From Aquificaceae bacterium (GTDB lineage: Bacteria; Aquificota; Aquificia; Aquificales; Aquificaceae), in contig JALWEG010000023.1 in the NCBI GenBank assembly GCA_027014155.1, positions 1 through 64,000 of the forward strand: a stretch of DNA of 64,000 nt, read 5' to 3'. Both the position numbers and the translations under genes were made by a program. Below are positions 58,977-64,000 of this stretch, piece by piece. The stretch's first letter is position 1. Each line of letters opens with the position of its first letter. The notes under the pieces were generated by a model, which was given only the letters and a program-made list of their open reading frames with translations, had not been told where the DNA came from and searched no databases.

Positions 58977-60344
58977 ATGGGAGGAATACTACTCGTTGAG
59001 GACGACAAGAATCTAAGGGAGCTTTTAAAGAAAAAAATAATAGCCACGGGTCGTCCTACGGAGGCTGTCGGCACCGGGGAAGAGGCCAGAGCCTTGATAG
59101 AGAACAAGAGCTTTGACGTGGTGGTTATAGACGTAAGGCTACCCGATGTTGACGGTATAGAGATTGTTCGGGAGTTCTCCGAGAAGTTCGGCACCAAGTT
59201 CATAGTCATAACGGGATACGGAGACGTAAACACGGCCGTAAAAGCTATGAAGAACGGGGCTTACGACTTTATTCAAAAGCCCTTCAGCTTTGAGATACTT
59301 GAGGTTAGCATAGAGAAGGCTTTAAAGGAGAAGAGATTGGAGGACGAGAACAAAACCCTTAAAAAGATACTAAAAGGGAAAGGGGAGGAATTCATGCTTG
59401 AGACCAGGAGCAGGAGGTTCAAGGAGTTGCTGGCCACCGCTGAGAGGGTGGCTAAAACGGACGCCAACGTCCTCATAAGGGGAGAGACGGGCACCGGTAA
59501 AGAGGTACTTGCCCGCTACCTGCACGACATATCTCCCAGGAGAGAAAAACCCTTCGTCATAGTAGATTGCACATCTATTCCGGAACATCTATTTGAAAGT
59601 GAACTCTTCGGCTACGAGAAGGGAGCCTTCACCGGCGCAACCCAGAAGAAGCTGGGGCTTGTGGAGATAGCCGACGGAGGGACCATCTTCTTGGACGAAA
59701 TAGGAGAGCTTCCCCTCCCGATTCAGGCCAAGCTATTGAGGTTCGTGGAGAGCAGGAGGTTCAGGAGGGTAGGAGGACTCAGGGAGATAGAGGTTGACGT
59801 AAGGATAGTGTCCGCCACAAACAGAGACCTGTACACCATGGCGGCGGCCGGGGAGTTCAGAGAAGACCTGCTTTACAGGCTCAACACCATAGAGCTTGAA
59901 GTTCCTCCTCTGAGAGAGAGAAAAGAAGACATTCCTCTCTTGGTTATGCACTTTCTCAAGAGGTTCAAGAAAAAGGTTAAGGAAGAGACTCTGAACAAGA
60001 TGATGAGTATGAACTGGAGAGGTAATATCAGAGAGTTGAGGAACACCTTAGAGCGTGCGGCTCTCCTTTCCAAAGACGAGTACATAGACGAATCTTTGTG
60101 CCTTAGCCTGCCGCCGAGCGGTGGCTGCATAGAAAACGTGTTTGAGGAGCTACCTGACCTCAGAGAGCTGGAAGGCAAATACATAGAGTTCCTATACAAA
60201 AAGTTTGATGGGGACATAGACAGGATAGCTACCGTATTGGGGTGTAGCAGGAGAACCGTTTTCAGGAAACTAAGAGAGCTCCGTAAAAGGCACGCTGACG
60301 ATAAAGACGCTGCCCTTCCCGGGAGCGCTGTCAACGTGGATTGA
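58977..60344 (+). CDS. NtrC-family sigma-54-dependent response regulator
   Basis: 455 residues in three domains: receiver (ILLVEDDKN at the start, phospho-acceptor D52 in VIDVRLPDVDG), AAA+ sigma-54 interaction domain (GETGTGKEVLARYLH; the GAFTGA loop in EKGAFTGATQKK; GGTIFLDEIGELPL) and a Fis-type HTH (IDRIATVLGCSRRTVFRKLR). All motifs for activating sigma-54 polymerase are intact. Its cognate kinase is the convergent gene downstream, which overlaps it by 75 bp, and a sigma-54 promoter lies just beyond at the sulfide operon. Confidence 0.93.
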   Translation: MGGILLVEDDKNLRELLKKKIIATGRPTEAVGTGEEARALIENKSFDVVVIDVRLPDVDGIEIVREFSEKFGTKFIVITGYGDVNTAVKAMKNGAYDFIQKPFSFEILEVSIEKALKEKRLEDENKTLKKILKGKGEEFMLETRSRRFKELLATAERVAKTDANVLIRGETGTGKEVLARYLHDISPRREKPFVIVDCTSIPEHLFESELFGYEKGAFTGATQKKLGLVEIADGGTIFLDEIGELPLPIQAKLLRFVESRRFRRVGGLREIEVDVRIVSATNRDLYTMAAAGEFREDLLYRLNTIELEVPPLRERKEDIPLLVMHFLKRFKKKVKEETLNKMMSMNWRGNIRELRNTLERAALLSKDEYIDESLCLSLPPSGGCIENVFEELPDLRELEGKYIEFLYKKFDGDIDRIATVLGCSRRTVFRKLRELRKRHADDKDAALPGSAVNVD

Positions 60345-61307
60345 ACCACCGTACTCCTTCACTATGCTGTCCACTATGGCGAGACCTATGCCGGTACCGT
60401 CGCACTTATTGCGTCCCTGGTAAAAGGGTATGAATATCTTTCTCAGCTCCTCGGGACTTATTCCCTCCCCTTCGTCCTTAACGGACAAAGTCCACTCCTT
60501 GTCCGTTGAGCTTAGCTCCACCAGAACCTCTTTACCGGCAGGAGAGGCTTGAATGGCGTTAAGGATTAGATTGAGAGCCAAGTGTCTTACGTCGCTCTCG
60601 TCCCCTACGAAGTAGCCTTCCCAGGAAGATGAGTACTTGAGAACCACTCCCCTTTCCCTCGCATACACGTTCAGAATGTCTATCACGTCCCTTACAGCCT
60701 TGTCCACGCTCATTATGTCCTTCTTAGAACGCCTCTTTATGAATAGGAACATCTTATCTATGTAATCCTTGCAGGTCTGAATAGCGCTCTTTATGGTCTC
60801 TATCTCCTCGCTGTCTCCCAGCTTGGACTCTAAATCCTCAAGAGCTATGAGAGCCGTGTTTAGGGGCGTGTTCAATTGGTGGGCTATGCCCATCGCTAAG
60901 AACCCAACGGAGCTGAGCTTCTGGGACATGCTAAAGAGCCAGAACTTCTCCTTGTCGCTCTTTATGTTCCTTATTATCTGAACCGTAAGCTCTCCCCCCC
61001 TTATGGGAAAGGCGCATATCTCAACGGGAAACTCCTTGTTATCGTGGGTGTAATGGGTGTGAACCACGTTAACGGAGTGTCCCACCTTCTCTATCTCCCT
61101 GAGGGGACAGGGATGGCAGCTGTCTTCACACGGCTCGTCCTGGTTGTGCGATACCTTATAGCAGAAGTGTCCCAGAACCTCTTCTTTAGACTTGCGTCCT
61201 ACGTCCTCTATATACCTTCTATTGGCATACACTATCCTGTAGTTTCTGTCTATTACCACAACCTCGTCGCTGAATTCTTCAAATATGGAAAAGTCAAACC
61301 TGTCCAT
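60270..61307 (-). CDS. Cytoplasmic PAS-domain histidine kinase with Cys/His-rich sensor
   Basis: 345 residues without TM segments. The PAS domain (residues ~5-115) contains an unusual cluster C49, H54, C60, C64, H65, C67 (HFCYKVSHNQDEPCED, SCHPCPLR), a possible metal, Fe-S, heme or thiol-redox site. HisKA has H143 in MGIAHQLNTPLN, and the ATPase domain has LNAIQASPAG, DEGEGISPEE and GTGIGLAIVDSI. Probable partner of the activator encoded convergently; the two genes share 75 bp at their ends. Transcribed away from the sulfide operon and sharing its 177-base upstream region. Confidence 0.85.
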   Translation of the reverse strand: MDRFDFSIFEEFSDEVVVIDRNYRIVYANRRYIEDVGRKSKEEVLGHFCYKVSHNQDEPCEDSCHPCPLREIEKVGHSVNVVHTHYTHDNKEFPVEICAFPIRGGELTVQIIRNIKSDKEKFWLFSMSQKLSSVGFLAMGIAHQLNTPLNTALIALEDLESKLGDSEEIETIKSAIQTCKDYIDKMFLFIKRRSKKDIMSVDKAVRDVIDILNVYARERGVVLKYSSSWEGYFVGDESDVRHLALNLILNAIQASPAGKEVLVELSSTDKEWTLSVKDEGEGISPEELRKIFIPFYQGRNKCDGTGIGLAIVDSIVKEYGGSIHVDSAPGKGSVFIVSVPFTELS

Positions 61308-61344: not shown

Positions 61345-61380
61345 TGTCATTTATGACACCTATGAATGTCATAAGTGTCA
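61345..61380 (+). promoter_or_regulatory. Two activator boxes upstream of the sulfide operon
   Basis: Box 1 at 61345-61358 is a perfect TGTCA-TTTA-TGACA. Box 2 at 61367-61380 is TGTCA-TAAG-TGTCA, one base from the same dyad. They start 22 bases apart, two helical turns, so both face the same side of the DNA, about 85-110 bases before the expected sigma-54 start site. This is the usual arrangement of NtrC-type enhancer sites. Confidence 0.6.
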
Positions 61381-61432: not shown

Positions 61433-61449
61433 TTGGCAAAGAAATTGCT
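61433..61449 (+). promoter_or_regulatory. Sigma-54 -24/-12 promoter of the sulfide operon
   Basis: TTGGCAAAGAAATTGCT matches TTGGCAN-N5-TTGCW, with GG and GC exactly ten bases apart. Transcription would start near 61460, followed by a strong AAGGAGG ribosome site and the FCSD start codon. Confidence 0.65.
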
Positions 61450-61484: not shown

Positions 61485-62798
61485 ATGAGAATTAACAGAA
61501 GGGAGCTTTTCAAGGTAGCGGGCGTGGGAGCTGCGGCCGTGGGACTATCCGGAGTATCTGGTTCCTCCTTCGCGTTTGCTAAGAAGGTTGAAGAGATAAG
61601 CCTTCCCAAACCTTCCGCCAAATCTCAGAGGGTCGTGATAGTAGGCGGCGGGTGGTCCGGAGCTACACTGGCCAAGTATCTTAAGAAAGGGGACAAAAAC
61701 CTTGATGTTGTCTTGATTGAAAAGAGAGCCAACTTCTTCTCCTGTCCGGCAAGCAACCTGTGGTTGGTGGGACTAATCCCCCTTGAGTTCTTAGTTCATG
61801 ACCACCTGTACGCTGCAAGCAAATATGGTTATCACTTCGTCAACGCCACGGTTCACGGTATAGACAGAACTAAGAGATACGTATATACGGAGAAAGGTAA
61901 GATACACTACGATTACCTCGTTCTGGCTACCGGTATAGATTACGACTACTCCCAGTGGGTAGGGACGGACCCCAAGGACGTGGAGATAGCGAGAACCAAG
62001 TATCCGGCCGCCTTCGTTCCCGGTGGCGAACACCTCGCTCTAAAGAGGAAGATTGAAGAATTTGAAGAGGGTAATTTCGTGATAACCGTTCCTCCCGGCT
62101 TGGATTACAGATGTCTGCCGGGTCCATACGAAAGGGCCACCCTTATAGCCTGGTATTTCAAAAAGAATGACATTCCCGGAAAGGTTATACTCATAGACCC
62201 CCACAACGACCCACCCGTTAAAGCCGAAGGTTTCCACAAGGCCTGGGACGAGTATGTGAAGGGATACGTTGAGTATTACAGCAACGCTACCATAAAGGGT
62301 GTTGACTTTGGCAAGAAGGTGGTCTCTACCGAGGAGTACGGTGATGTGGAGTTTGAGGACCTCAACCTCTACCCGAGGTGTAAATCTACCGAACTGGTTT
62401 ACAATGCCGGCCTGGTTCCCAAGGGGGACAGATGGCCTAAGCTCAAGTGGCCTTACAACGTAGCGGCCGATGACCATAGAATCCTTTGCACGGGCGATGC
62501 GAGAAACCACCCCTTCTCCAAGAGCGGCAACACAGCCAACACGGAAGCTCACCACGTGGCCAAGCAAATTCTCGCGATGGTAAAGGGTAAGAGTGCGGAG
62601 TATATGGCACCGAGGACGCTGTGCTATTCGGCGGTAGATTCGGACAAGGCGGTGTGGGTTGACCTAACTTACAAGTACGACCCCAAGAAGAACAGCTTCG
62701 CCTTCCACAACGTCAAGATGGATAACACACCCTCCGGTAAGAACTACAAGGCCTATATAGAGTGGGCTAAGGCGATGTATAGGGACATGTTCGGTTAA
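61485..62798 (+). CDS. Flavocytochrome c sulfide dehydrogenase-type flavoprotein (SoxF/FccB-like)
   Basis: FAD enzyme oxidising sulfide in the periplasm. A Tat signal (NRRELFKVAG, then a hydrophobic stretch) leads to the FAD motif VVIVGGGWSGATLAKYL (54-59 GGGWSG). C87 in FFSCPASN and C210 in YRCLPGPYERA (the conserved FCSD redox Cys context) are present; the C-terminal TLCYSAVDSDKAVW matches the family's dimer/quinone-side motif. 437 residues, standard. No FccA cytochrome gene follows; a Rieske protein gene does. Preceded by a sigma-54 promoter and two activator boxes. Confidence 0.85.
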   Translation: MRINRRELFKVAGVGAAAVGLSGVSGSSFAFAKKVEEISLPKPSAKSQRVVIVGGGWSGATLAKYLKKGDKNLDVVLIEKRANFFSCPASNLWLVGLIPLEFLVHDHLYAASKYGYHFVNATVHGIDRTKRYVYTEKGKIHYDYLVLATGIDYDYSQWVGTDPKDVEIARTKYPAAFVPGGEHLALKRKIEEFEEGNFVITVPPGLDYRCLPGPYERATLIAWYFKKNDIPGKVILIDPHNDPPVKAEGFHKAWDEYVKGYVEYYSNATIKGVDFGKKVVSTEEYGDVEFEDLNLYPRCKSTELVYNAGLVPKGDRWPKLKWPYNVAADDHRILCTGDARNHPFSKSGNTANTEAHHVAKQILAMVKGKSAEYMAPRTLCYSAVDSDKAVWVDLTYKYDPKKNSFAFHNVKMDNTPSGKNYKAYIEWAKAMYRDMFG

Positions 62799-62824
62799 TC
62801 TCCCTTCTTCCAGTTCATACCTTT

Positions 62825-62847
62825 CGGGGGCCTGTGCCCCCGGTTTT
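62825..62847 (+). terminator. Terminator-like hairpin between the FCSD and Rieske genes
   Basis: Seven-base arms CGGGGGC and GCCCCCG around CTGT, then GTTTT. The T run is short, so partial termination that lowers expression of the downstream genes is more likely than full stop. Confidence 0.5.
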
Positions 62848-62873
62848 GCAAACTTGGTAAGAGGTTTGTGGTT

Positions 62874-63590
62874 ATGGACAGAAGAAACTTTTTAAAGCTT
62901 TGCTCAAGCATGGCGGTAGCTTCTATGTTAGACACTGGTGTGATAGGTAGAGCTCTCGCCTCTCAGGGAGGGGACTTTAAGAAGTACGAGAAAGCTCTGC
63001 TGGTGAAGGAAGACGGCACTCCCCTGAAGGTGGAAGACATAAAGCCGCACACGACCTATATCTTCTTCTATCCCTTCGTGTCAACTCCCGCATTCCTGCT
63101 GAATCTGGACAAGGAGGTCGGTCCTGTAGATTTGGAGCTTTCCGATGGCTCAAAGTATAAATGGCCCGGAGGAGTGGGACCGAAAAAGAGCTTGGTGGCC
63201 TACTCGGCTATATGCTCGCACCAGCTCAGCTATCCAACGAAAGACTACTCCTTCATAGATTATTACTCTCCAGAAAACCCCTCAAAGACTACAAAAAGGT
63301 CCGGGGTTATACAATGCTGTGCACACCTCTCCATATTTGACCCCTCTCAGGGAGGTAAAGTGTTAGATGGCCCTGCGGAGTTTCCCATATCCACGGTAGT
63401 CCTCAGCTACGAGGAAGGTAAGCTTTACGCCGTAGGGACCTTGGGAGTGGAGGTGTATCAGGACTTCTTTGACGTTTACAAAAGGGATTTGAGAAAGCAG
63501 TACGGCTCCTCCAGAAAGGCGAAAAAGAAATCTAAAGAGTGCAAAGTTATAGAGGTGAGCAAGTATGCAAAGGAAAGTATCAAGTGTTAA
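62874..63590 (+). CDS. Tat-exported Rieske iron-sulfur protein
   Basis: 238 residues. The N-terminus MDRRNFLKLCSSMAVASML is a Tat signal. Rieske boxes: AICSHQLSY (C114, H116) and IQCCAHLSIFDPSQGGKVLDG (C148, H151) supply the 2Cys/2His [2Fe-2S] ligands. The 31-residue gap between boxes is longer than in bc1 Rieske proteins, and box I has no disulfide Cys. It resembles the small subunit of arsenite oxidase-type enzymes more than bc1. The tail is very basic (SSRKAKKKSKE) and ends in Cys. Between two FCSD-type genes it may carry electrons from them. The ATG is preferred over the GTG two codons earlier for its ribosome-site spacing. Confidence 0.75.
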   Translation: MDRRNFLKLCSSMAVASMLDTGVIGRALASQGGDFKKYEKALLVKEDGTPLKVEDIKPHTTYIFFYPFVSTPAFLLNLDKEVGPVDLELSDGSKYKWPGGVGPKKSLVAYSAICSHQLSYPTKDYSFIDYYSPENPSKTTKRSGVIQCCAHLSIFDPSQGGKVLDGPAEFPISTVVLSYEEGKLYAVGTLGVEVYQDFFDVYKRDLRKQYGSSRKAKKKSKECKVIEVSKYAKESIKC

Positions 63591-64000
63591 CAGAAGGCAG
63601 TTTCTATTGGGTAGCGGTGGTTTAGCGGTAGCTTCCGTCTCGGCTTCAAGCTTTCCCGTGGTTGCCAAACCGGTTTCCAAAAGCTCCCTCATGCCTTCTC
63701 CCAAAGGCAACAGGGTGGTAATAGTGGGAGGAGGATGGGGAGGCATTACGGCGGCCAAGTATGTCAAAAAGGATAATCCCAACGCGGAGGTGATTCTTAT
63801 AGAGAAGAACCATATGTTCATATCTTGTCCCATGAGCAACCACTTTCTCTTCGGACTGCTGGACTACGAGAGCCTGTGCTACCCCTACAACACGCTGCGG
63901 GTAAAGCACGATGTAAAGGTGATAAACGACAGGGTTCTGGATATAGACCTGAGGAGTAAGAAGGTCGTTCTGCCCGAGGGCTTTATTGAGTGGGACTACC
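63565..64000 (+). CDS. Second FCSD-type flavoprotein, 5' part
   Basis: The frame is open to the window end. It begins MQRKVSSVNRRQFLLGSGG, a Tat signal, then RVVIVGGGWGGITAAKYVKK (FAD motif) and FISCPMSNHFLFGLLDYESL, matching the first FCSD-type protein in plan but differing in most residues, so it is an old paralogue. A GAGGTGA ribosome site seven bases upstream supports the ATG, which overlaps the Rieske gene by 26 bp, so the two are coupled. Full length and the later Cys motifs cannot be seen. Confidence 0.8.
   Translation, partial: MQRKVSSVNRRQFLLGSGGLAVASVSASSFPVVAKPVSKSSLMPSPKGNRVVIVGGGWGGITAAKYVKKDNPNAEVILIEKNHMFISCPMSNHFLFGLLDYESLCYPYNTLRVKHDVKVINDRVLDIDLRSKKVVLPEGFIEWDY

Follow-up and report, generated by a model that had tools for sequence, protein, structure and literature searches.

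A Rieske protein gene linked to and co-inherited with FCSD flavoprotein genes in Aquificales and other bacteria

Genes at the locus and past the window edge

FCSD flavoproteins of well-studied bacteria pass their electrons to a partner cytochrome and are usually treated as flavocytochromes. The window, the whole 64,000-base stretch analysed here, comprises bases 1–64,000 of the 139,533-base contig C23 in a 1.86-Mb Aquificaceae genome. Open reading frames in the window contain FcsD1, a Rieske gene and, from 63565, the first part of FcsD2, and the operon runs in the order FcsD1, Rieske, FcsD2 and an OmpA-like lipoprotein gene.

61485–62798, + strand: FcsD1, a Tat-type FCSD flavoprotein of 437 amino acids (FAD-Cys C87, redox Cys C210 and C380)
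62868–63590, + strand: Tat-type Rieske protein, SoxL2/AioB-like, 238 amino acids counted from the preferred ATG at 62874
63565–64000, + strand: windowed part of FcsD2, a second Tat-type FCSD flavoprotein of 430 amino acids, the gene ending at C23:64857

An alignment of relatives makes ATG 62874 a likelier Rieske start than 62868, and the Rieske and fcsD2 genes overlap by 26 bp. All three proteins begin with an RRxF-type Tat motif, in agreement with the export predicted in a preliminary description of the window. That description left the rest of the operon beyond the window: FcsD2 is completed at 64857 and is followed, after 80 bp, by the OmpA-like lipoprotein gene (PF00691) and then by peptidase-like, argJ-like and coaE-like genes, the last three named from reading only. 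The order FCSD–Rieske–FCSD without a cytochrome gene, which it also reported, holds beyond the window edge. In C23 read to 77000, no cytochrome gene was found downstream of FcsD2, which rules out one hidden just past the edge, and the fccA- or soxE-like gene directly downstream that would have spoken against a role for the Rieske protein is absent. No CxxCH haem-motif protein is encoded among the neighbours on either side of the cluster, and the cytochrome subunit gene that stands beside the flavoprotein gene in FccAB flavocytochrome c is missing here.

Upstream of FcsD1 lie a two-component pair and two sequence elements.

58977–60344, + strand: NtrC-type sigma-54 response regulator, a neighbour in several relatives too
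60270–61307, − strand: PAS histidine kinase, overlapping the regulator gene tail to tail by 75 bp
61345–61358, no strand: perfect palindrome TGTCATTTATGACA, read by eye, with a near copy at 61367–61380
61434–61449, + strand: sigma-54-type promoter match TGGCAAAGAAATTGCT, lying some 50 bp upstream of FcsD1

Of 69 Rieske-linked FCSD genes, 15 have such a site upstream with a score of at least 10 of 12, versus 3 of 1,380 shuffled sequences; these sites occur mainly in Aquificaceae that also have a neighbouring NtrC-type two-component pair. In this lineage, the neighbouring two-component pair probably controls the operon together with the sigma-54 promoter, and the palindrome, judged from its sequence, is a candidate activator site. 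The convergent overlap of regulator and kinase (58977–61307) is seen again, at roughly 57–75 bp, in four other loci (L039, L048, L049 and L050).

Features of the flavoproteins and the Rieske protein

FcsD1 scores 76.8 bits against FCSD_central (PF21706) and 30.3 bits against FCSD-flav_bind (PF09242), both above cut-off, and FcsD2 scores 72.3 bits against PF21706; the two share 36% identity, and both match the solved FCSD flavoproteins 1FCD, 5N1T and 3VRD. The covalent FAD Cys and the redox-active Cys pair of FcsD1 correspond to residues 42, 161 and 337 in A. vinosum, FcsD2 has Cys in the matching motifs, and the FAD and disulfide positions are conserved as Cys. The score for sulfide:quinone reductase type III (NF049943), 94.6 bits, lies under the cut-off of 525. 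The flavoprotein is homologous over almost its full length to that of FccAB from Allochromatium vinosum (1FCD, E = 2.5e-40) and Thioalkalivibrio (5N1T, E = 9e-44), with which it shares the FAD-Cys, the redox Cys pair and the Tat motif; unlike FccAB, it has a Rieske gene in place of an adjoining FccA, and it groups apart from FccA-preceded FccB. The FCSD tree, whose root is arbitrary, contains a group of FccB preceded by a cytochrome gene (including the Hydrogenothermaceae FccA–FccB–Rieske–FcsD2 clusters), a well-supported FcsD2 group and a group with 83% support that holds nearly all remaining Rieske-linked FCSDs. The tree thus gives moderate support for a separation of most Rieske-linked FCSDs from cytochrome-linked FccB. 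A third FCSD gene of the same genome (5935–7320 of L153, G000:C7) adjoins neither a cytochrome nor a Rieske gene.

The Rieske protein has three further elements of interest, with codons counted from ATG 62874.

63213–63224, + strand: Rieske box I, C114-S-H116-Q
63315–63326, + strand: Rieske box II ligand segment, C148-C149-A-H151
63585–63587, + strand: codon of the C-terminal Cys238, a candidate for a disulfide with Cys149

C114, H116, C148 and H151 form the C-x-H ... C-x-x-H ligand pattern of the Rieske superfamily. The unusual spacing and the missing box I disulfide Cys of the preliminary description are both borne out: exactly 31 residues separate H116 from C148, and S119 and A150 occupy the two positions of the classical bc1-type disulfide, so that the box II partner is missing as well. 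The protein alone scores 20.1 bits against the Pfam Rieske model, just below the cut-off of 20.3, and 21.2 bits in a genome search that included neighbouring stretches. The nearest NCBIfam model, SoxL2 (TIGR03171), aligns in two pieces that cover most of the length, but at 105.7 bits is far from its cut-off of 582.1; the AioB model (TIGR02694) gives 41 bits versus a cut-off of 95.65, and no aioA gene adjoins. SoxF of the Sulfolobales (1jm1) is the top PDB sequence match. SoxL and SoxF are known as components of respiratory complexes of the cytochrome b type. In an AF2 model built with 48 sequences (mean pLDDT 89.5, last block 93), the protein is predicted to adopt a Rieske fold, for which Foldseek returned AioB and SoxF as the best PDB folds (probability 1.00; TM 0.84 by target length and rmsd 1.9 for AioB 4aay_B), and to continue from about residue 191 into an ordered additional C-terminal region.

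The very basic tail previously described is real, with a net charge of +9 over residues 200–238, but is peculiar to this lineage, the family median being +3, which rules it out as a family-wide functional feature. At the other end of the protein, the Tat motif is followed immediately by a Cys at residue 10 (62901–62903; RRxFxKxC), which 25 Aquificales sequences share without exception and which 108 of the 140 family sequences contain.

Across these 140 sequences, Cys149 is present where a Cys stands at or near the end and absent where none does; the handful of sequences that depart from this rule are truncated or broken, or carry the tail Cys several residues away from its usual place. The covariation of Cys149 and Cys238 ranks second among 18,739 pairs. 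This pattern suggests that the two residues could form a replacement for the classical disulfide; because a single change of Cys149 on the Rieske tree accounts for it, we treat that disulfide as hypothetical and do not take the covariation as proof. The terminal Cys is no by-product of the overlap with fcsD2, as it is kept in loci that have no FcsD2 (L028, L030, L031 and the L035–L038 group). The missing classical disulfide is in itself not extraordinary, since AioB of NT-26 likewise has none and its potential is +225 mV (PMC3758308).

Linkage and co-inheritance across genomes

FCSD, counted when above the Pfam cut-off, and the Rieske gene, identified by a family-specific search, occur in the same 34 of 61 Aquificales genomes; 26 have neither, in one (G015) both are degraded, and no intact FCSD without a Rieske gene was found among the 61 (Fisher p = 1.4e-17 for the 60 genomes other than G015, kinship being ignored). 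In G015, the FCSD and Rieske remnants lie side by side within 1 kb (L221, G015:C4:16000-23000), a natural joint loss. Both genes are missing from some genomes of genera g4 and g16, which otherwise have the pair, and both have decayed in g7; this is suggestive of repeated joint loss, with the caveat that some of the genomes concerned are incomplete.

FCSD adjoins the Rieske gene in 59 of the 61 testable loci that keep the ligand His, as determined by script, and by coordinates in one more (L173); the linked loci span Aquificota, Campylobacterota, three Burkholderiales and one Myxococcota-like MAG. FCSD–Rieske, with or without FcsD2, is found across Aquificaceae and in several Hydrogenothermaceae. 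As the pairing recurs across Aquificaceae, usually with FcsD2, and given the co-occurrence, a chance neighbourhood can be ruled out; the Rieske gene is thus conserved beside FCSD in relatives, where a lack of conservation would have weakened the preliminary proposal. The two paralogues that flank the Rieske gene at this locus are likewise real, but the conserved core is FCSD–Rieske and the second flavoprotein is optional. In some Hydrogenothermaceae (L223), FccA and FccB are present together with the Rieske gene, which is therefore additional to the cytochrome there rather than a substitute for it.

Outside Aquificota, the Rieske gene was found in 17 of 249 sampled Campylobacterota genomes; all 17 have FCSD, versus 3 of 15 sampled genomes without the gene. 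These Rieske genes mostly adjoin FCSD, although one Sulfuricurvum locus (L108) has no FCSD beside the Rieske gene, and the usual order is FCSD–Rieske–monohaem cytochrome, the last of about 135 amino acids and without a Pfam match in the two proteins tested. Two Campylobacterota MAG loci (L091 and L092) carry a Rieske protein of the Aquificota type, with CCAH and the tail Cys, possibly by horizontal transfer or binning error. FCSD–Rieske was also seen in three Burkholderiales and in one Myxococcota-like MAG labelled Deltaproteobacteria.

Most Burkholderiales members of the Rieske family stand alone. In a Burkholderiales branch of 48 sequences (the Burkholderiales loci among L093–L130, and L174–L203), Glu or Asp replaces the box II ligand His; box II mostly reads CC[SA][ED]H, and has no His at all in L194, L195, L197, L199 and L201. 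FCSD adjoins none of the 44 testable loci of this branch, versus nearly all His-bearing Rieske loci. As the branch is one clade, the loss of the ligand His and of FCSD linkage counts as a single event.

Proposed electron exit from FCSD

The order dhsU1–Rieske–dhsU2 was published in 2012 for a hot-spring Sulfurihydrogenibium (LSSB) with no role given to the Rieske protein, and DhsU1 from such a cluster is active in sulfide oxidation as a monomer, with no haem subunit present (PMC3504083). The LSSB cluster has the same flavoprotein–Rieske–flavoprotein order as ours, but is preceded by a cytochrome gene and followed by sox genes. Whereas FCSD, Rieske proteins and this order are already known, the strict co-occurrence, the spread across phyla, the possible Cys149–Cys238 disulfide and the Burkholderiales branch without FCSD linkage or ligand His are new. 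Among the open-access papers searched, none was found to assign this protein a function together with FCSD; PMC3504083 was the only relevant one.

The co-inheritance data are best read as indicating that FCSD donates its electrons to the Rieske protein. On this genomic evidence, we consider it likely that the Rieske protein serves a periplasmic sulfide (or sulfane) dehydrogenase as its dedicated partner for electron exit, relaying electrons to cytochrome c. FCSD would oxidize sulfide, or possibly sulfane or persulfide, by means of its redox-active Cys pair and FAD; the Rieske protein would draw single electrons from the flavin and hand them to cytochrome c, from which they would reach a terminal oxidase. 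FcsD2 would be an optional paralogue served by the same Rieske protein. The Rieske protein would then stand in for the haem subunit FccA and serve FCSD as AioB, in arsenite oxidase, serves the molybdenum subunit. AioB, besides being the best fold match, is an electron-exit subunit to cytochrome c; unlike AioB, to which it is 19–25% identical and whose partner is a molybdenum enzyme, the Rieske protein has a longer box spacing and about 47 more C-terminal residues. Because a cytochrome c gene is also present in Campylobacterota clusters and in some Hydrogenothermaceae clusters, the Rieske protein probably passes electrons on to cytochrome c and does not ultimately replace it. The earlier suggestion of a new electron acceptor for sulfide oxidation thus agrees with the best reading of the co-inheritance, but the gene order is not new and a relay is likelier than a substitute. 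That the loci encode a distinct class of sulfide or sulfane dehydrogenase found in several phyla, with an FCSD subfamily that lacks a haem subunit, an AioB-like Rieske protein as its electron exit and a Cys149–Cys238 disulfide in exchange for the classical one, is a more tentative proposal that we regard as possible but somewhat doubtful.

The substrate, left broad above, could be SoxYZ-bound sulfane, or persulfide, rather than free sulfide, with FCSD, the Rieske protein and cytochrome replacing SoxCD in the Sox cycle, a reading that overlaps with the preferred one. Some Campylobacterota have soxYZ inside the cluster, in the orders FCSD–SoxY–SoxZ–Rieske–cytochrome (L217), FCSD–SoxY–SoxZ–Rieske (L218) and Rieske–cytochrome–FCSD–SoxY–SoxZ (L219), the two proteins being identified by Pfam in L217 (SoxY 105 bits, SoxZ 81 bits) and L219 and by sequence similarity in L218; the cytochrome of L217 and L219 is a small monohaem protein of about 135 amino acids without a Pfam match. 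Furthermore, sox genes follow FcsD2 in Hydrogenothermaceae (L223; PMC3504083), and no soxCD was seen within the sox cluster of the genome analysed here. However, these sox genes sit on another contig, and neither thiosulfate, sulfite nor sulfur, in free form, was a substrate of recombinant DhsU1 (PMC3504083); we judge this reading unlikely.

FCSD could also reduce soluble cytochrome c directly, as monomeric DhsU1 does with horse cytochrome c in vitro (PMC3504083), and cytochrome c genes are abundant in this genome; the Rieske protein would then be a separate carrier, or an assembly or regulatory partner sharing the operon. A loose passenger, however, would not be expected to mirror the presence and absence of FCSD across 61 genomes or to recur next to it in three or four phyla, which makes this account improbable. 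Highly improbable is a sulfur carrier whose C-terminal Cys takes persulfide from FCSD in the manner of the SoxY terminal Cys: almost every member from Aquificota and Burkholderiales ends in Cys, also in loci free of the constraint of a gene overlap, but nearly all Campylobacterota members that have FCSD end in Tyr, the tail is predicted to be ordered, and the joint presence or absence of Cys149 and a Cys in the tail is more in keeping with a disulfide.

The inheritance of FCSD with a Rieske protein in related and unrelated bacteria suggests a second way of wiring sulfide oxidation into respiration. If the preferred reading, electron exit through the Rieske protein, is true, it would explain FCSD genes without fccA and add a second enzyme, after arsenite oxidase, in which an AioB-like Rieske protein serves as exit for an unrelated catalytic subunit; if widespread, it would change the annotation of sulfide oxidation and estimates of its energetics in hot-spring Aquificota and vent-type Campylobacterota. 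The same genome also has an aioB–aioA-like pair (5008–8233 of L155, G000:C3), in which an AioB-like Rieske gene precedes a molybdopterin-enzyme-like gene of 872 amino acids.
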